A stretch of 10,794 nt of DNA, from assembly GCA_030623665.1 (NCBI GenBank), contig JAUXLO010000038.1, forward strand, positions 1-10,794. The letters run 5' to 3'. The notes under the pieces are model-generated. The model was not told the origin of the DNA. It made no database searches and saw only the letters and a program-made list of their open reading frames with translations. Shown here in pieces: positions 2,251-9,047 of the stretch (its first letter is position 1; each line of letters begins with the position of its first letter). Both the position numbers and the translations under genes were made by a program. This stretch comes from Planctomycetota bacterium. GTDB taxonomy: Bacteria; Planctomycetota; Brocadiia; Brocadiales; Bathyanammoxibiaceae.

Positions 2251-3333
2251 TTACGGAAATTGGTTGTCCCTTGGGAATGAGCCCAAGACCTTAAGCTCTA
2301 GGCACACGTGGCTGACCTTTTCCAGCATCCTCTTAATGTTCTCGTCCTGAACATGACCCTCAAACTCTACGTAAAAACTGTAATCCCAGGCCTTTCTGCC
2401 GGAAGGCAGCGATTCTATACTCGTCAGGTTGACGCCGCACTTTTTAAACGGGTGGAGGATCTCGTAGAGTGCACCGACTTGATTCCTTATGTAACACATT
2501 ACCGCCGTCTTGTCCTTACCGCTCGGGCTGGAGAACGACTTACTCAAGACATAGAAACGTGTAATGTTATCGGGATCGTCTTCGATATTGCTGCACAGGA
2601 CGTTTAAGTTGTATGGCTCTGCCACCTCAGCATGGGCTATAGCGGCGGCGTTAGTCTCTCTTTTTGCCATCTGTGCGGCCTCGGTAGTACTGCCAACCTC
2701 CAACAGTTCTACCTCAGGGAGCTTGTTCGAGAGCCAATTCCTGCACTGAGAAAAGACCTGAAGTTTGGAGTATATCCTTTTAACCTCCTCAATGGCACAA
2801 CCGGCCATAAGGCTGTGGTGTATTGGGAGTATAACCTCCGCACAGACCTTAACATCACACTCCTGAAACATGTTAAGTGTCTCGCGTATGCTCCCCTCTG
2901 TAGAATTCTCTGCAGGGACTATTCCATAATTTGCACGGCCCGTTTCCACCTCTCTAAAGACTGCATCTATACCTCTCTGCGGCAAGTACTCGACAGAGGC
3001 ACCAAAACCCCTCCTGGCGGCTACAAAGCTGAAGGTACCCACCGGGCCCAGATAGGAGACCCTAAGGGATTTCTCAAGGGCCCTGGAGCCGGCCATAAGT
3101 TCCCTGTAAATCGCCCTTAAGCAGTCGTCGGGCAGGGGGCCTTTATTCTCTGAGGCAACCCTCTCATAGACCTGTTGTTCCCTGTTAGGGTGATAGACCT
3201 CTGTACTAGTCTGCCTCTTTACCTCACCTATGCGTTTGGCAATCCCTGCACGGTCGTTCAGGAGCTTGACTATCCTTGAATCAAGGTCGTCGATTTGCTT
3301 CCTTAAGGATTCTAACGCACCTTCAGTTTTCAT
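2251..3333 (-). CDS. pheA: Bifunctional chorismate mutase/prephenate dehydratase (P-protein)
   Basis: The protein converts chorismate to prephenate and then to phenylpyruvate, the committed steps of phenylalanine synthesis. Domains in order: an AroQ chorismate mutase helical domain (about 1-88, with LRKQIDDLDSRIVKLLNDR), a prephenate dehydratase domain (about 91-268, with YLGPVGTFS, VPAENSTEGSI, GSTTEAAQMA and the catalytic ITRFYVL at 257-263), and a C-terminal ACT regulatory domain (about 276-355, with GALYEILHPF and SIESLPSGR). The 360-residue length is typical. The second ACT motif reads ESLP where the family usually has ESRP (Phe binding), so feedback inhibition may be altered; this is inference. 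ATG at 3333 has an AAGGG ribosome site about 11 bases upstream. It is first in the operon, behind a sigma-70-type promoter near 3404-3432. Confidence 0.97.
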   Translation of the reverse strand: MKTEGALESLRKQIDDLDSRIVKLLNDRAGIAKRIGEVKRQTSTEVYHPNREQQVYERVASENKGPLPDDCLRAIYRELMAGSRALEKSLRVSYLGPVGTFSFVAARRGFGASVEYLPQRGIDAVFREVETGRANYGIVPAENSTEGSIRETLNMFQECDVKVCAEVILPIHHSLMAGCAIEEVKRIYSKLQVFSQCRNWLSNKLPEVELLEVGSTTEAAQMAKRETNAAAIAHAEVAEPYNLNVLCSNIEDDPDNITRFYVLSKSFSSPSGKDKTAVMCYIRNQVGALYEILHPFKKCGVNLTSIESLPSGRKAWDYSFYVEFEGHVQDENIKRMLEKVSHVCLELKVLGSFPRDNQFP

Positions 3334-3351
3334 TATAATATTGACCCTTAG

Positions 3352-3362
3352 GACAGGCTGTC
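3352..3362. repeat. Short inverted repeat in the pheA leader
   Basis: GACAG and CTGTC face each other around a single base. The repeat lies between the predicted pheA transcription start (near 3397) and the start codon at 3333, where it could be an operator half-site pair or chance. It is too tight to fold as a hairpin. Confidence 0.25.
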
Positions 3363-3403
3363 ATACGGAGGATTTTTTGAAGGCTAAAGTGTTTTAAACC
3401 ATA

Positions 3404-3432
3404 TCAATATCAGAATTTAAGAAGGGTGTCAA
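3404..3432 (-). promoter_or_regulatory. Predicted sigma-70-type promoter of the pheA-tpiA-secG-yicC operon
   Basis: On the minus strand a perfect -35 box TTGACA (3432-3427) is followed after 17 bases by TATTGA (3409-3404). Transcription would start near 3397, leaving a leader of about 64 bases before pheA. The box lies 11 bases from the -35 box of the divergent NYN-gene promoter. Confidence 0.55.
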
Positions 3433-3443
3433 ACAAAATTAAT

Positions 3444-3471
3444 TTGACTGTTACAGCCACATTGATAAAAT
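3444..3471 (+). promoter_or_regulatory. Predicted promoter of the NYN-domain gene and rnc
   Basis: TTGACT (3444-3449) is followed after 16 bases by TAAAAT (3466-3471). Transcription would begin near 3478, that is, downstream of the in-frame ATG at 3470. This is one reason to place the start of the NYN gene at 3524. Confidence 0.45.
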
Positions 3472-3523
3472 GGTATTATATTTTTTCTACCCCGATGTTT
3501 CAAGGTACATAAGAGAGATAGAG

Positions 3524-4108
3524 ATGGCCCAAGATTCTATAAAGTCTTCAAAGTCTTCTGAACAGCGAGTAGGAGTCTTCGTAGACGTACAGAATATGTT
3601 CTATTCGGCTAAGGCGTTGCATCAGTCGAAGATAGACTACTCTAAACTGCTCCAAGAAATCGTTGGTAACAGGAAACTTGTAAGGGCCCTTGCATATGTG
3701 GTCCAAAAGTCAGAGGTGGACCAATCCAGCTTTACAGAGGTCCTGGAGCGGCTGGGTTACGAGATAAAATCAAAAGACCTGCGACTTCGCCCCGACGGCA
3801 CCGCCAAGGGTGACTGGGACATGGGTATAGCTATAGACACCATAGCCATTGCGCCCAAGCTGGACACGGTGGTACTGGTCTCGGGCGACGGCGATTTTGT
3901 ACCCCTGGTAGAGATGCTGAAGGCCCATGGCTGCAGGGTGGAAGTGGTTTCCTTCCGCAAGAGCACCTCCACCGAGCTTGTCATCGCGGCCACAAAATAT
4001 ACCTCCATCGAAGAATCTATGCTGTTTAAGGAGAGAAAATTCCAGAAGGATGAAAACTCAAGAGACCAACAGGAGAGAGAGCCTAAAAAGGTGCCAGAAA
4101 GGACTTAA
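3524..4108 (+). CDS. NYN domain (LabA/DUF88-like) putative ribonuclease
   Basis: The fold is a PIN-like NYN nuclease domain covering about residues 15-165. Conserved acidic positions are visible: VGVFVDVQN (Asp21), KGDWDMGIAID (Asp97, Asp99, Asp105) and LVSGDGDFVPLV (Asp122, Asp124). These form the metal site of NYN/LabA-type proteins, many of which are thought to cleave RNA. The last 25 residues are highly charged and probably disordered. The frame opens at an ATG at 3470, but that codon overlaps the predicted -10 box and has no ribosome site. The ATG at 3524, preceded by AGAGAGATAGAG, gives 194 residues starting MAQDSIKSSK and is preferred. The gene overlaps rnc by 59 bases, which points to an RNA-processing pair. 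The fold is secure; the substrate is unknown. Confidence 0.88.
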   Translation: MAQDSIKSSKSSEQRVGVFVDVQNMFYSAKALHQSKIDYSKLLQEIVGNRKLVRALAYVVQKSEVDQSSFTEVLERLGYEIKSKDLRLRPDGTAKGDWDMGIAIDTIAIAPKLDTVVLVSGDGDFVPLVEMLKAHGCRVEVVSFRKSTSTELVIAATKYTSIEESMLFKERKFQKDENSRDQQEREPKKVPERT

Positions 4109-4775
4109 ATACACCTTTAAAGACATCTCTTTGCTTGAGAAGGCGCTTATACATACATCCTGTAAGCTGGAATACAACGGCAGTAACGAGAGGCTGGAGT
4201 TTCTTGGCGACGCTGTACTTGGGATGGTAATCTCCGGGCACCTCTACAATACTTTTGTTGAATTCAGCGAGGGTGAGCTGACAAAGATAAAGTCAGTGGT
4301 GGTAAGTCAGCCCATATTGGCCAAGACAGGAAACAGGTTAGGGCTTAGCCGGTACATAACCGTAGGCAAGGGGCTTCACGGCAAACACGGTTTCCCAAGG
4401 TCTATCATCGCCAACGTATTTGAGGCCGTCATTGCGGCCGTCTATATAGACGGTGGAATCCGTGCGGCTAGCGATTTTGTCCTCACACACCTATTAGAGG
4501 AAATAAAGCTTGCCTCTAAAGATGAACACGTGAGGAACTACAAGAGCCTCCTCCAACAGTACTGCCAGAAACACCTAAATACTACTCCACAATATAAGAT
4601 AATTGGGCAGCACGGGCCGGACCACGGTAAGACCTTCGAGGTCATGGTCGTAATCAAAGACAATACCTACGGCCACGGCAAAGGCCAGAGCAAGAAAGAG
4701 GCAGAGCAACTCGCCGCCGAAGAAACACTTAACGCCATTGTCTTTGACAAAGGCAGTGCGGCAGCAAAATGCTAG
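4050..4775 (+). CDS. rnc: Ribonuclease III
   Basis: RNase III cleaves double-stranded RNA in rRNA and mRNA maturation as a cytoplasmic homodimer. Domains: a nuclease domain (about 12-152) with the signature NERLEFLGDAVLG (46-58; Glu47, Glu50 and Asp54 match E. coli Glu38, Glu41 and Asp45), then a double-stranded RNA-binding domain (about 160-231, NYKSLLQQYCQK through GQSKKEAEQLAAEETL). In the second metal motif the usual Asp is Asn122 (ANVFEAVIAAVYID), while the catalytic Glu125 is kept. Length is 241 residues, normal for the family. The ATG at 4050 lies inside the NYN gene and its nearest purine run (AGAAGG) touches the start codon, with AAGGAG 16 bases away, so translation may depend on coupling. 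No later start would keep the first helix. The stop shares CTAG with the queC stop. Confidence 0.95.
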   Translation: MKTQETNRRESLKRCQKGLKYTFKDISLLEKALIHTSCKLEYNGSNERLEFLGDAVLGMVISGHLYNTFVEFSEGELTKIKSVVVSQPILAKTGNRLGLSRYITVGKGLHGKHGFPRSIIANVFEAVIAAVYIDGGIRAASDFVLTHLLEEIKLASKDEHVRNYKSLLQQYCQKHLNTTPQYKIIGQHGPDHGKTFEVMVVIKDNTYGHGKGQSKKEAEQLAAEETLNAIVFDKGSAAAKC

Positions 4776-5458
4776 AGTCTGTCCGTCCGGTAGGGTATTG
4801 GATCCTTATGTCCCGCCTCACTAAACGCCTCACGCCGCAACAAACAACTCTGACACCGCCCACAGGCCTTTTCCTCTTCCTTATAGCAAGACCAGCTGAG
4901 ATGAAAGGGCGCTCCCAGTGACATGCCCCTCTTGACTATGTCGCCTTTCCTCATGTGAATCAGGGGTGTCTCCACGGTTATGTGGGTCTCGGGCCTGGTG
5001 CCTGCATCCACAAGCCTATTAAATATCTCGTAATACCGCTCCCTGCAGTCGGGGTAACCTATACGGTCATCCTCCACTGCACCAATGAAAACCTTCTCTG
5101 CTCCTATGACCTCTGCCCACGAAACAGCAGCCATAAGTAGATGCGTATTCCTGAAAGGTACATATGTGGAGGGTACTTTGTTCGTGGTCGTGGTGGATGT
5201 TGGAATGGCAATACCTGAATCGGTGAGACTGGAACCGCCAATGGCGCCCAGATAGGTCATATCTATGACTAATCTCTTTTCCCCGGGTACCGCGTAGCAA
5301 GATGCGATATCGTTAAACGCCTTCAGCTCCCTTTCTTCCGTCTTTTGCTTATAGTTTGCGTGGAGACAGGCCAGCTCAAAGGACTCATTGGCTATGGCCG
5401 CCACCACACAACTATCCATCCCCCCGCTCAGGAGTACCACTGCCAGACCTGCTTTCAT
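4772..5458 (-). CDS. queC: 7-cyano-7-deazaguanine (preQ0) synthase QueC
   Basis: QueC turns 7-carboxy-7-deazaguanine into preQ0 using ATP and ammonia, a step towards queuosine in tRNA. The PP-loop LLSGGMDS (9-16) binds ATP. The family segments YVPFRNTHLLMAAVSWAEVIGAEKVFIGAVEDD (split here at residues 99-131) and YPDCRERY follow. The zinc site is complete at the C-terminus: Cys191, Cys199, Cys202 and Cys205 (CYKEEEKACGRCQSC). The 228-residue length is typical. The ATG at 5458 has an AAGGAG ribosome site 11 bases upstream, lying inside the end of queE; the two genes overlap by 47 bases and must be cotranscribed. The queC product uses the queE product directly. At its other end the gene meets rnc tail to tail with a 4-base overlap and no room for a conventional terminator. 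Confidence 0.97.
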   Translation of the reverse strand: MKAGLAVVLLSGGMDSCVVAAIANESFELACLHANYKQKTEERELKAFNDIASCYAVPGEKRLVIDMTYLGAIGGSSLTDSGIAIPTSTTTTNKVPSTYVPFRNTHLLMAAVSWAEVIGAEKVFIGAVEDDRIGYPDCRERYYEIFNRLVDAGTRPETHITVETPLIHMRKGDIVKRGMSLGAPFHLSWSCYKEEEKACGRCQSCLLRREAFSEAGHKDPIPYRTDRL

Positions 5459-6119
5459 CTCTACACGTGCTCCTTAGCGTTATACCTTCCGGTGTCCCCG
5501 GGGGCCAAACGTATCGTTGGACCTGTATCTGGAAACGGACATCCACCCCATCCTCCAGTATCCAGGAGGCTACCTGTTTGAGCTCTAACTTACCAAAAGC
5601 TACACCGATAAGAACCTTCGCCTTCTCTGTAAGCTTGTATCTTTCTATAACGTCTTTTGCCCAGTCATAATCCCTTCTGGAACTTAACACAAACTTTACT
5701 TCGTCACCGGGCCTCAATCTTTCAATATTTCCCCAATCCACTTTATGGGCCATACCGCTATCAGGACATTTCAGGTCCATAATCCTTATGGCAGCTTCAG
5801 GCAGCACACTTATATCCAGCGTGGCGTTGGTCTCGACCAGCACATGGTAACCATTCTTTATGAGCAATGAGACCAATCCTCCGGTCTCCTCTTGAAGTAG
5901 GGGCTCGCCCCCGGTAATCTCTATCAAATTACACCCCAAGAGCTCAATATCGGAAAGAATCTCATCCTCACTCATGTTCACCCCGTTCTCATAGGCATGG
6001 ACCGTATCACAGTAGTTGCATCTTAAATTACATCCCGTTAGCCTTATAAAGCTGCACGGCAACCCGGCATAGGTGGACTCTCCCTGAATGCTCTTAAATA
6101 TTTCAGTTACCTCTAGCAT
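5412..6119 (-). CDS. queE: 7-carboxy-7-deazaguanine synthase QueE (radical SAM)
   Basis: QueE is a radical S-adenosylmethionine enzyme that contracts 6-carboxytetrahydropterin to 7-carboxy-7-deazaguanine. Visible features: EIFKSIQGEST (6-16), the iron-sulfur motif CNLRCNYCDT with Cys30, Cys34 and Cys37, the SAM-binding ITGGEP (68-73), and an ETNAT segment. The family's C-terminal block appears as RFQIQVQRYVWPPGTPEGI. After it about 22 extra residues (TLRSTCRDESRSGSG and onwards) run into queC, giving 235 in total. A run of C and G in the WPPG codons (near 5500-5508) is a possible frameshift spot: in another frame the protein would stop at a TAG two bases before the queC ATG. The upstream ribosome-site candidate AGGGGG is 12 bases from the ATG at 6119. 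It is first in the queE-queC operon. Confidence 0.95.
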   Translation of the reverse strand: MLEVTEIFKSIQGESTYAGLPCSFIRLTGCNLRCNYCDTVHAYENGVNMSEDEILSDIELLGCNLIEITGGEPLLQEETGGLVSLLIKNGYHVLVETNATLDISVLPEAAIRIMDLKCPDSGMAHKVDWGNIERLRPGDEVKFVLSSRRDYDWAKDVIERYKLTEKAKVLIGVAFGKLELKQVASWILEDGVDVRFQIQVQRYVWPPGTPEGITLRSTCRDESRSGSGTPERGDG

Positions 6120-6140
6120 AAAAGACGTATGCCCCCTTTA

Positions 6141-6166
6141 GACGGTGTTATTTCAGTAAAACCGTC
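6141..6166. repeat. Inverted repeat at the queE transcription start
   Basis: GACGGT (6141-6146) and ACCGTC (6161-6166) form a perfect 6-base inverted repeat with a 14-base centre. On the minus strand its outer edge coincides with the predicted queE transcription start (about 6166), and it ends just before the ribosome site. It could be a repressor operator or a 5'-terminal mRNA hairpin. I do not see the conserved sequence of a class I preQ1 riboswitch. Confidence 0.4.
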
Positions 6167-6172
6167 AAAAAA

Positions 6173-6202
6173 ATTATAAATCAGCCTCCGCCTATTTAGC
6201 AA
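6173..6202 (-). promoter_or_regulatory. Predicted promoter of queE-queC
   Basis: On the minus strand TTGCTA (6202-6197) is followed after 18 bases by a perfect TATAAT (6178-6173). The predicted start near 6166 gives a leader of about 47 bases. Confidence 0.55.
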
Positions 6203-6414
6203 GTGCTTTTAGACCGTTTATAACATATTTTGTGAATAAAGCAAGACCTCTGCAAGACCTTGTGTTTTCGTCCATTACGTCCAAAATCTAGGGATACAAT
6301 TTATCAAGCCCATCTGGAAGAGGGTAGGTAAATCAAGCCCCTGCAAAGGGTTTCGTGAAAGCCATGCGATGATAAGGGAGATCTCGGCCGATTCAAAATA
6401 ATGTCACGCCAAAG
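6179..6414. other. Non-coding stretch with short direct repeats
   Basis: No credible gene on either strand. GCAAGACCT occurs twice, at 6241-6249 and 6252-6260, exactly 11 bases (about one helical turn) apart, as expected of tandem protein-binding sites. ATCAAGCCC occurs at 6303-6311 and 6332-6340. A TACAAT box at 6295-6300 lacks a good -35 partner. The stretch separates the divergent queE promoter from the orphan ORF and mamK-like cluster, so it is the natural place for upstream control of that cluster. No tRNA or known riboswitch core was recognised. Confidence 0.4.
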
Positions 6415-6666
6415 GTGCTGCGCCCAACAAATGGCCGACCGGCCTTCGGCGAAGATGTGCCTATGGCATCACATCTTAAAATAAATATTTATCAGGGCTC
6501 AGGGCCTAAATATTACCAAAATTATGCTATTGACAAGGAATTTGGTTTATTGTACGATTCGCAAGTGGGGAATTCTAAGAATACTGTTCCAAACGGTTTA
6601 GCTGGAAGCTACAATCAAATTATTTACAAAGGCAGGGATCTTAAAGAAAGGGGGATATTGAAGTAA
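6415..6666 (+). CDS. Small hypothetical protein, first ORF of the mamK-like cluster
   Basis: An 83-codon frame starts with GTG at 6415; an ATG at 6463 would give a 67-residue version beginning MASHLKINIYQGSG. I do not recognise the protein. It is rich in Tyr, Asn, Gly and Lys, has no membrane segment or signal peptide, and is followed after two bases by the ATG of the coiled-coil gene, which itself lacks a well-spaced ribosome site. That spacing suggests translational coupling and is the best argument that this frame is real. Against it: neither start has a good ribosome site, the codons from 6480 onward are more AT-rich than in neighbouring genes, and a good promoter-like sequence lies inside it (6530-6558). 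It may be a genuine small gene, a remnant of a larger one, or an acquired fragment. Confidence 0.45.
   Translation: MLRPTNGRPAFGEDVPMASHLKINIYQGSGPKYYQNYAIDKEFGLLYDSQVGNSKNTVPNGLAGSYNQIIYKGRDLKERGILK
6530..6558 (+). promoter_or_regulatory. Promoter-like sequence upstream of the coiled-coil and mamK-like genes
   Basis: A perfect TTGACA (6530-6535) is followed after 17 bases by TACGAT (6553-6558). A start near 6565 would give a leader of about 100 bases before the coiled-coil gene at 6669. It lies inside the small ORF 6415-6666, so either that ORF is not coding or this is an internal promoter. Confidence 0.45.
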
Positions 6667-6668
6667 AA

Positions 6669-7412
6669 ATGTATCAAGAACACTCTAATCCCTCCCCAAA
6701 GGATGTACAGCTCGATGTAGGAACGGCAATCGACCAGGTAGCTTCGCACATACCCCTCAAGGCCTTTCGTAAACAGGGTCTATCCGAGGTTCGGGTAATT
6801 AGCGAGAAGACCCTTGGCGAACTGGTAGAGAAGGCCGTAGATGCCGAGCTTCAAAAGAGATTCGACGACCTATCGAGGGAAAGGGATGAACTCCGCACGA
6901 GGTCAGAGGCCCTGTCGAGGCAACTGGCGGCGATTGAGGAGGGCTCAGGAGGCCTTTCTGGTGAGAAGGAAGAGTTAGAAAGGAACAAAAAAGCTCTTGA
7001 GGAAGAGGTGGCACGACTTCGCAGCAGGTTAGACGCAGAAAAGACAACGTTCACGGGAGCCACAAGCGCTAAGACGTCAGTAACCAAGGAAAAATACGAG
7101 GAAAAATTAAAAGAGGTGATAGAGAATATACTCGAGGGGACAAGGGGGACGATTCCTGTAGACTTGTTTGAAAATGTTAAGGAAAACCTCTTGAATCAAC
7201 TTGTTGAGAAATTTCCACACACCACATCTCCCCTTCGCGTTATAAGCCAAAGTGAAGCAGCATTTACCAGCCAACCACAACCGTTCACTCCCACCTCAGG
7301 TACCGGGCCTATAAAACCAGGGAGTCTATTCCACAAGCTGGTGGAAAGTAATGTCCAATGGCGCCACAAGCAGAAGACCCGGAAAGAAGAACAGAAGGGA
7401 AAAGAGTTTTAA
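6669..7412 (+). CDS. Coiled-coil protein upstream of the MamK homologue
   Basis: I do not recognise a named family. The 247-residue protein is soluble, without signal peptide or membrane segment. Order of parts: a mixed N-terminal region (1-48); a long charged helical stretch with heptad-like spacing (about 49-127, such as RFDDLSRERDELRTRSEALS and EELERNKKALEEEVARLRSR) broken by a Gly/Ser hinge at 92-98; a Thr/Ser linker; a second helical part (138-182, KEKYEEKLKEVIENILEG and onwards); a Pro/Thr/Gln linker (185-218); and a basic C-terminal helix (219-247). This is the make-up of a structural or adaptor protein. It ends 34 bases before the mamK-like start on the same strand, so the two are probably cotranscribed. 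A role as filament partner or anchor is inferred from context only. Confidence 0.85.
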   Translation: MYQEHSNPSPKDVQLDVGTAIDQVASHIPLKAFRKQGLSEVRVISEKTLGELVEKAVDAELQKRFDDLSRERDELRTRSEALSRQLAAIEEGSGGLSGEKEELERNKKALEEEVARLRSRLDAEKTTFTGATSAKTSVTKEKYEEKLKEVIENILEGTRGTIPVDLFENVKENLLNQLVEKFPHTTSPLRVISQSEAAFTSQPQPFTPTSGTGPIKPGSLFHKLVESNVQWRHKQKTRKEEQKGKEF

Positions 7413-7433
7413 CAAAACATTTTTTACTTCCCT

Positions 7434-7442
7434 GGAGGAAGG
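7434..7442 (+). promoter_or_regulatory. Strong ribosome binding site deciding the mamK-like start
   Basis: GGAGGAAGG lies with its GGAGG core eight bases before the ATG at 7447. It selects that start over the in-frame ATG at 7351, which lies inside the coiled-coil gene and has no such site. Confidence 0.75.
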
Positions 7443-7446
7443 TTAT

Positions 7447-8514
7447 ATGATGGCAGAGGCTGTTACAGAAGAAAGAGACCCCAACGTTATGTACGTAGGT
7501 ATGGACCTGGGGACGTATAGGGCCTCTATAACGGCAAGCAACGGTATTAGGAAAACGGTGGTAAGTGTCGTGGGATGGCCAAAGGACGACATCTCCAGAA
7601 AGTTATTGGGTAAGGATATTGTCTTTGGCCATGAGGCCATGAAACACCGTTTAGCGCTGAACCTTGTAAGGCCCCTCGAGAAAGGAGTAATAAAGTATTC
7701 TGACGATTCAACGCTGGCAAGCGAAGAAGAAATAGAAATATACAAGGAGGCAGCGAAAGAGATCGTTAAACATGCGATAACTCTGGCGCAACACAGAAGT
7801 GGACAAACGGTATATGCCGTTATCGGAGCACCCGCCCAGGCAAGCGTAATAAACAAACAGTCGTTGATAGAGGCCGCTATGGAGGCCGTTGATTCCGTCA
7901 TTGTGGTCTCTGAACCCTTTTCCGTGGCTTACGGACTTGACATGCTGGATGATGCCTTAATTATTGACATTGGGGCTGGTACGGTCGACCTCTGTAGGAT
8001 GCACGGTGCATTACCTGAAGAAGGAGACCAGATAACCCTTACCACCGCTGGGGACTACGTAGACGAGCTTCTATTGAAGCTGATAAAGGAAAATCATCCC
8101 GATGCCCAAATCACCATCAATATGGCCAGGGATATAAAGGAAAGAAACGGCTTTGTCTCAGATACCAACGATAGAGTAGTCGTCAGGATCCCTGTAGAAG
8201 GCAGGCCCAGGGTAATTGACATAACAGAAGAATGCAAGCAGGCTTGCAAGGCTATAGTACCGCCTATGATTGAGGCCGTTGGAAACCTTATCGCCACCTA
8301 CGACCCTGAGTTCCAGGCCCGTATAAGAAACAATATAATCCTGGCAGGTGGTATGAGCCAGCTAAAGGGTCTCGACAGGCTTCTGGAGGAGGGGCTTGAG
8401 GAGTTTGGCGGTGGAAATGTCTGCAAAGTAGATGAACCTGTTTATGCGGGTGCTGACGGTGCTCTTAAACTGGCCTACGATATGCCCGGTGCCCTCTGGA
8501 AGGAGCTAAGGTAA
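7447..8514 (+). CDS. mamK: MamK-family actin-like ATPase (filament-forming)
   Basis: The protein has the actin/Hsp70 ATPase fold: phosphate-1 motif YVGMDLGTYRAS (16-27), phosphate-2 motif LIIDIGAGTVDL (171-182) and adenosine motif ILAGGMSQLKGLD (298-310). It matches the magnetosome filament protein MamK along its length, with SVVGWPKDDI, KLLGKDIVFGHEA, AVIGAPAQAS, VVSEPFSVAYGLD, a PEEGDQITLTTAGDYVDE block and the end GALKLAYDMPGALW. Glu156 and Asp174 correspond in context and spacing to the MamK catalytic Glu143 and Asp161, so it should hydrolyse ATP. The 355-residue length fits MamK (about 350). The start is set by the ribosome site at 7434-7442. MamK forms cytoplasmic filaments that align magnetosomes; no other mam gene is seen here, so the cargo is unknown. 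The symbol marks family membership, not proven magnetosome function. Confidence 0.9.
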   Translation: MMAEAVTEERDPNVMYVGMDLGTYRASITASNGIRKTVVSVVGWPKDDISRKLLGKDIVFGHEAMKHRLALNLVRPLEKGVIKYSDDSTLASEEEIEIYKEAAKEIVKHAITLAQHRSGQTVYAVIGAPAQASVINKQSLIEAAMEAVDSVIVVSEPFSVAYGLDMLDDALIIDIGAGTVDLCRMHGALPEEGDQITLTTAGDYVDELLLKLIKENHPDAQITINMARDIKERNGFVSDTNDRVVVRIPVEGRPRVIDITEECKQACKAIVPPMIEAVGNLIATYDPEFQARIRNNIILAGGMSQLKGLDRLLEEGLEEFGGGNVCKVDEPVYAGADGALKLAYDMPGALWKELR

Positions 8515-8698: not shown

Positions 8699-8774
8699 AA
8701 AGTAAGAACTTGAAGGCACATTATTAATAGCCTGAAAACCCTTTAAGGAGCCTGCACATCTAAGGAACTTGGAT

Positions 8775-9047
8775 ATGATAAAGTGGCTAAAACCCGTTCG
8801 TAAATGCAGTGACTGTCAGCTTAACCTTGGTGACCGCTGTGCCATATTTGAAAGTCCAAGGGACAAGTGGCACCACGGCAGATGCTCGGGGTACAACAAC
8901 CCTGAGTTAATAAAGAAATTTGAAGAAGAACAGGCAAAACACCCACCCAAGGAAACAAAAGAAAAAAGGAAAATGGTGGCAAAAAAGAGAGGCACCACAG
9001 AACATCGTCAAGGAAAGGCAAAGACCGTCAGGCAAAGCACTCACTAA
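8775..9047 (+). CDS. Small basic protein with four cysteines, putative zinc-binding
   Basis: I do not recognise a named family. The 90-residue product begins MIKWLKPVRKCSDCQLNLGD. Cys11, Cys14, Cys22 and Cys37, with His33 and His34 between the last two, could bind zinc or another metal. The second half (about 44-90) is a charged, strongly basic tail (PKETKEKRKMVAKKRG and beyond), likely disordered and able to contact nucleic acid or acidic protein surfaces. The ATG at 8775 is chosen over a TTG at 8769 because AAGGA lies eight bases upstream of it. It has its own promoter. It follows the mamK-like gene on the same strand, but the long spacer argues against strict cotranscription. The stop overlaps the thrC stop by four bases. 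Confidence 0.75.
   Translation: MIKWLKPVRKCSDCQLNLGDRCAIFESPRDKWHHGRCSGYNNPELIKKFEEEQAKHPPKETKEKRKMVAKKRGTTEHRQGKAKTVRQSTH

Follow-up and report, generated by a model that had tools for sequence, protein, structure and literature searches.

The window analyzed here is a stretch of 10,794 nucleotides of planctomycete DNA (contig JAUXLO010000038.1 of assembly GCA_030623665.1; G000:C181 in our numbering), which comes from a 1.5 Mb assembly estimated to be 82% complete. It encodes a MamK-family actin and, directly before it on the same strand, a coiled-coil protein, termed the partner below (Table 1). The two genes are separated by 34 bases, a gap that was re-measured with the same value as in a preliminary description of this DNA, and the start of mamK at 7447 (or 7450) is preceded by GGAGGAAGG.

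The full-length product of mamK was matched by the NCBIfam MamK model NF040964 at 425.3 bits (cut-off 400). The MamK model surpassed all the others, as the BeeR model NF053558 reached 200.6 bits, far under its cut-off of 530, and two MreB models gave 75.9 and 59.4 bits (cut-offs 293 and 365.75, respectively). A separate MreB is encoded by the same genome (G000:C72). Among solved structures, the best matches were the chains 5jyg and 5ljv, annotated as "Actin-like ATPase" (E 1.1e-78), which we take to be MamK of Magnetospirillum magneticum AMB-1, while 8r2n, presumably the related actin BeeR, was matched at E 5e-39. The window and AMB-1 proteins share 40.9% identity over 335 columns, and the DLGT, DIGAGT and AGG nucleotide blocks are aligned and intact. 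Glu156 and Asp174 of the window protein correspond to Glu143 and Asp161 in AMB-1 numbering, the catalytic pair of MamK, and all 58 MamK rows of the alignment have both residues. The three nucleotide motifs and the Glu/Asp pair had been read from the letters in the preliminary description, and the profiles and alignment confirm them; judged by its sequence, the protein is a MamK-family actin.

One match pointed elsewhere, namely a weak one to a PHROG partition protein (E 4.8e-8), as might be expected of a ParM-like DNA segregation system. Partition systems of the ParM type have, next to the actin, parC repeats and ParR, a DNA-binding protein. At this locus, however, the MamK family model wins by far, no repeats were found at 6110-6700, and the surrounding genes are chromosomal housekeeping genes conserved in relatives. 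Moreover, the partner is an upstream coiled coil with no DNA-binding domain by Pfam, and the neighbor on the other side is a 92-residue open reading frame (ORF) with no Pfam match. A partition function is thereby largely refuted and hardly credible.

The occurrence of the pair was analyzed in the family of the window (f1; 9 genomes), in a class sample of 75 genomes and in a phylum sample of 392 Planctomycetota genomes. The pair was present in 8 of the 9 f1 genomes, and in all eight that hold mamK its immediate upstream neighbor is the coiled-coil gene. A profile of the eight f1 partners (A3) found matches in 8 of the 75 class genomes, exactly those with f1-type MamK. Conversely, a profile of 41 partners from outside f1 recovered 8 of 8 f1 partners among 2903 ORFs, at E values from 1e-5 to 6e-12, the latter being that of the window partner. 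The 50 matches of this second profile comprised the 8 f1 partners, 41 ORFs located directly before other mamK genes, which are mostly the training rows of that same profile, and one other ORF (in locus L098); it had no match in the four f4 loci. Gene families recurring near mamK in more than three families (33 neighborhoods) were mamK itself and the partner, besides a further cluster from eight families that we read as antisense ORFs overlapping mamK.

Near their C-termini, the partners share a 12-residue motif resembling LxxIFxxNxxLR (pattern L/M/F xx I/L F/V xx N xx L R/Q), which reads FHKLVESNVQWR in the window. After removal of seven duplicate loci and one MreB locus, the pattern was found directly upstream of mamK in 8 of 8 f1 loci and in 41 of 46 other phylum loci, representing 19 families, versus 8 of 1576 control ORFs (mechanical ORFs of at least 100 residues) and none of the four f4 loci. 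The Asn was present in 49 of 49 partners, although the search pattern itself demands it. The suggestion that the coiled-coil protein is the partner of MamK is thus strongly supported by conservation, in the form of the motif, the profile and co-occurrence, and on these grounds we consider it the true partner.

Four partners from family f27 (L057, L059, L061 and L076) contain the 12-residue motif in two or three copies, an arrangement that would fit a multivalent filament-binding peptide. In 3 of the 10 partners scanned for domains (L102, L065 and L094, all from f39) a GGDEF domain was detected over the Pfam cut-off, and in L056 below it; the GGDEF-bearing partners suggest that some MamK filaments may be linked to nucleotide signaling. 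The L103 and L117 partners were suspected of carrying PilZ domains, which were dismissed for want of a Pfam match.

Selection on the genes was estimated from the ratio of nonsynonymous to synonymous substitution rates (dN/dS) in four unsaturated comparisons of the window genome with G007, G008, G003 and G010; the pair with G009 was saturated. The values, in that order, were 0.026, 0.045, 0.063 and 0.070 for mamK, 0.28, 0.17, 0.23 and 0.24 for the partner, and 0.072, 0.068, 0.128 and 0.062 for mreB. The ratio of mamK was under that of mreB in three of the four comparisons, and mamK is under strong purifying selection in most pairs.

Table 1. Features of the mamK locus and its flanks, numbered from the first letter of the window.
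Feature	Position	Strand	Basis
Sigma-70-like promoter of the gene pair (TTGACA, 17 bases, TACGAT)	6530..6558	+	Consensus scan; conserved in family loci, predicted
Partner gene (247 aa): conserved N-terminal region, coiled coil, C-terminal motif	6669..7412	+	8/9 family genomes; homologous to partners of other families
Partner N-terminal conserved region, about residues 19-62 (LKxFRKQGLxEVxVISEKTLxELVxKAV)	6723..6854	+	Bulk of the match to the profile of partners from other planctomycetes
Partner long-helix, coiled-coil-like region, residues 46-123	6804..7037	+	Composition; low-confidence AlphaFold2, helices 46-91 and 97-123
C-terminal 12-residue motif FHKLVESNVQWR, proposed MamK-docking helix	7329..7364	+	Pattern search of loci versus control ORFs
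mamK-family actin gene (355 aa)	7447..8514	+	NF040964 425 bits, tree, dN/dS
Small conserved ORF (92 aa, Cys-containing, basic C-terminus)	8769..9047	+	Between mamK and thrC, 7/7 family loci holding the place

Magnetosome genes were sought in the same genomes. The magnetochrome domain PF18509 was detected in none of the nine f1 genomes; as a positive control, the same scan of the 75 class genomes gave three matches over the cut-off in G059, a genome of the same order, and one below it in G047. A MamB query gave no match in the window's own 82%-complete genome, nor in G007, G008 or G003, while the five f1 genomes that remain had matches at 22-29% identity; other mam genes were not searched one by one. 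As searched, the preliminary statement that no magnetosome genes are visible holds, and no complete mam cluster came to light elsewhere in the genome.

Across the phylum sample, MamK was detected over the cut-off in at least 91 of 392 genomes and matched at E <= 1e-60 in at least 141, while magnetochrome was detected in at least four, two of which (G059 and G257) are among the 91; the counts are lower bounds, because in each genome these scans scored a limited set of first-look candidates, 20 in the magnetochrome scan and 5 in the MamK scan. On these lower-bound counts, MamK as a rule occurs without a detected magnetochrome gene in the phylum sample (89 of 91 genomes). At one of the loci, L109 (G097:C271), a second, distant actin-like frame (5072-6091, reverse strand), 26% identical to the window MamK, is located ∼1.4 kb downstream of mamK.

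The phylogenetic tree comprised 63 rows (46 other phylum loci, 8 from f1, 3 from f4, AMB-1 and 5 MreB), taken non-randomly as the best-scoring loci together with loci of our own choice from the match list. The eight f1 MamKs were monophyletic (100/100) and sister to two rows of family f84 (98/96), and they lay inside a planctomycete clade of 54 rows (99/97). The AMB-1 and f4 MamKs, the only representatives of magnetosome MamK in the tree, fell outside that clade and formed one side of a branch supported at 100/97. The window MamK thus appears to nest among standalone planctomycete MamKs, apart from magnetosome MamK in the best tree. Of the families with which the preliminary description had proposed to compare it, MreB was added and the window protein stayed with MamK; the tree held no ParM or AlfA. 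In contrast to AMB-1 MamK, which it resembles in family model and motifs, the window MamK stands in a separate clade of the best tree, with a different partner and no detected magnetosome cluster.

These results bear on the idea of a relic or silent magnetosome gene, according to which the pair would be left over from a lost magnetosome cluster. The magnetosome cluster of G059 does include a coiled-coil gene before mamK, and a tree that groups f1 with AMB-1 and f4, although 12.7 log units worse, was not rejected at 5% by the approximately unbiased (AU) test (p 0.068), which also counts against the interpretation preferred below. However, the coiled-coil protein of G059 lacks the motif and is not matched by the partner profile, the best tree sets f1 apart from the f4 and AMB-1 MamKs, selection in most pairs is strongly purifying, and the MamB query had no match in G000, G007, G008 or G003. 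We therefore regard a relic as very unlikely.

The host was presumed in the preliminary description to be an anammox planctomycete, and this was borne out at the level of the family. In the portion of text available from PMC9723696, the genome RIFCSPLOWO2_12_FULL_50_35 (G003), of the same family as the window genome, is placed in Ca. Bathyanammoxibiaceae. The hydrazine synthase alpha domain PF18582 was detected in six of the nine f1 genomes, including G007 of the same genus; a scan of the window's own 82%-complete assembly found none. By comparison, hydrazine synthase was detected in 19 of the 33 f3 genomes and 13 of the 17 f4 genomes, families that appear to be Brocadiaceae-like and Scalinduaceae-like, respectively. 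In two further genomes of the class, G064 (f7) and G065 (f8), domains of the PF18582 type occur 11 and 16 times per genome.

Within the class sample, MamK was found over the cut-off in 11 of 75 genomes, eight of the nine in f1 and three of the 17 in f4, with none in the 33 genomes of f3, the largest hydrazine-synthase-bearing family of the class, or in the remaining 16, and the three f4 MamKs all group with a MamK from a magnetosome cluster. The distribution has consequences for the proposal that it is the anammoxosome, or its iron-rich particles, that filament and adaptor together hold or segregate. The anammox character of the family, in the literature (the portion of PMC9723696 cited above) and by hydrazine synthase, and the presence of the pair in eight of its nine genomes agree with this proposal. 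On the other hand, f1-type MamK occurs in none of the 50 genomes of f3 and f4, and the examined loci show the pair in 19 further planctomycete families (not scanned for hydrazine synthase). The anammoxosome had been named as the obvious candidate for the cargo; with no MamK over the cut-off in f3, only magnetosome-type MamK in f4, and yet MamK in 91 of 392 phylum genomes, that claim was not upheld. Because f1-type MamK is lacking in f3 and f4, and the pair is often found in the rest of the phylum, the anammoxosome is not favored as the cargo, and we hold it to be quite unlikely.

The same wide spread over planctomycete families, in variable genome contexts, could be taken as a sign that the filament helps to shape or divide planctomycete cells. 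Many planctomycetes lack FtsZ, and the GGDEF domains on some partners could tie such a scaffold to signaling. The window genome, however, retains its own MreB, and since 251 of the 392 sampled genomes have no MamK match at E <= 1e-60, the function of this MamK is not a core one; a role as such a scaffold is considered unlikely.

The interpretation that we prefer, with a probability of roughly 0.6, is that the two genes form a non-magnetosomal filament-adaptor system, i.e., a cytoskeletal module belonging to a planctomycete-wide lineage of standalone MamK rather than to a magnetosome system. The MamK-family actin, given its family and intact motifs, would bind ATP and polymerize into a filament, and the partner would oligomerize via its coiled coil. 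The amphipathic motif at the C-terminus of the partner may then dock on the MamK filament, while its N-terminal region, the end at which the GGDEF domain is located in some other planctomycetes, may hold the cargo or anchor the filament. The two genes would be co-transcribed, and the module as a whole probably positions or segregates an intracellular structure. As the pair recurs in many other planctomycetes, it probably organizes something other than magnets.

Apart from the AU test, several observations weigh against this interpretation. The pair is missing from G005, an f1 genome that is 94% complete. This genome also lacks the orthologue of thrC, the neighbor of mamK in G004 and G006 of the same genus, and because that adjacent gene is absent too, loss of the pair is indistinguishable from a segment that was not assembled. 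The pair is conserved in the other eight family genomes. In the comparison of G004 with G006, the dN/dS of mamK (0.158) exceeds that of mreB (0.021). The reverse profile, built from the eight f1 partners, recovered just 17 of the 41 other partners at E <= 0.05, together with one unrelated ORF, and the profile match of the window partner, at 43.6 bits, is due to its coil and N-terminal part, with -1.8 bits for the C-terminal motif by itself; profile scores can be inflated by coiled coils. The motif pattern was chosen after inspection of the loci, and 5 of the 46 loci do not show it in place: L066 is cut by a contig end, none was found in L095, L096 and L107, and in L117 the motif is located deeper in the partner, at residue 566 of 704. 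Finally, the AlphaFold2 models, each based on three alignment rows, were poor, with a mean predicted local distance difference test score (pLDDT) of 34 for MamK and 53.5 for the partner. In the low-confidence partner model, a separate C-terminal helix (residues 220-245) follows a stretch at pLDDT <50 (residues 184-214), which fits the docking idea without proving it. Since the structure models are poor, it is conservation that speaks for docking.

Upstream of the pair, a TTGACA-N17-TAxxxT site is found 74-158 bases before the partner gene in seven of the eight f1 loci (not in L040), and the partner and mamK are probably made from this one conserved promoter. An 83-residue ORF (6415-6666), at the left edge of the region marked out in the preliminary description, covers the promoter-like site; related genomes give pieces of 13-16 residues and no full-length match, and it is probably no gene. 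The 92-residue ORF downstream of mamK had no Pfam, NCBIfam or PHROG match and was detected in none of the other fetched loci. Beyond these, one side of the pair is occupied by yicC-, secG-, tpiA-, pheA-, NYN-, rnc-, queC- and queE-type genes, and the other by thrC; yicC, tpiA and pheA were named by eye. Rfam had no match in the window.

The genome that served as positive control is of interest in its own right. G059 (f4, Brocadiales, 93% complete) carries a near-complete magnetosome cluster on one contig (L048, G059:C33:5000-24900), in which the best NCBIfam matches are MamE, MamM, MamN, MamO, MamP, MamA and MamQ, all below cut-off, and MamB and MamK, both over it. Directly upstream of the cluster (L133, G059:C33:1-8000, positions 3263-7204), genes were named by eye as one FeoB-like gene and a pair of mutually similar regulators of the DtxR type. 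Elsewhere in the genome (L132, G059:C25:22000-38000), hzsA is located beside genes for a 341-residue two-haem protein, a 378-residue protein and an eight-haem protein. The tetranucleotide correlation of the two contigs is 0.92, a value that is compatible with a mixture with a close relative, because the relatives G044 and G045 correlate with them as well (0.89-0.92). If not a binning error, G059 would be a candidate magnetotactic anammox bacterium. In G044 and G045 (loci L046, L047 and L049), the MamK groups with that of G059 and is accompanied by a lysine-rich coiled-coil gene, amid large tetratricopeptide repeat genes; no other mam gene was recognized by eye in the 20 kb stretch. A second mamK copy in G045 is cut by the contig end.

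Compared by description, the pair resembles two known systems. In Desulfovibrio magneticus, according to the portion of PMC12748827 available, a Mad20/23/25/26-MamK-Mad28 network acts on magnetosomes and is encoded within the magnetosome cluster. There, coiled-coil proteins interact with a MamK actin to organize an organelle, but that network is magnetosome-bound, which the window pair is probably not. In Magnetospirillum, MamJ is the adaptor by which cargo is linked to MamK filaments; in the text available from PMC10653835, it was not identified outside magnetospirilla, save for a MamJ-like gene in MV-1. MamK-type "actin-ancestors" have been ascribed to planctobacteria in PMC7203096, the abstract passage of which does not include the partner, the motif or the anammox family. 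Non-magnetotactic MamK homologues are mentioned in the available passages of PMC5955933 and PMC7449369, and in the latter none of them fell inside the MamK clades. Planctobacterial MamK is thus already known, while the partner family and its motif, this pair, and an anammox bacterium with magnetosome genes were not found in the literature searched, which consisted mostly of passages from papers available without subscription.

If the preferred interpretation is true, MamK would be separated from magnets: what has been known almost exclusively as a magnetosome filament would turn out to be a cytoskeleton common in planctomycetes and equipped with an adaptor of its own, and this in a phylum noted for its unusual internal membranes. 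A MamK match alone, even over a curated cut-off, would then be no marker of a magnetotactic bacterium, and the motif provides a concrete candidate docking site and a route to the cargo. The case of G059, if true, would bring two organelles of bacteria together in a single genome. More tentatively, and with considerable doubt, the standalone MamK and its motif-bearing adaptor may represent an old, planctomycete-wide cytoskeleton for positioning organelles or complexes, of which magnetosome MamK would be a specialized offshoot, with the GGDEF-bearing adaptors tying some lineages to nucleotide signaling.

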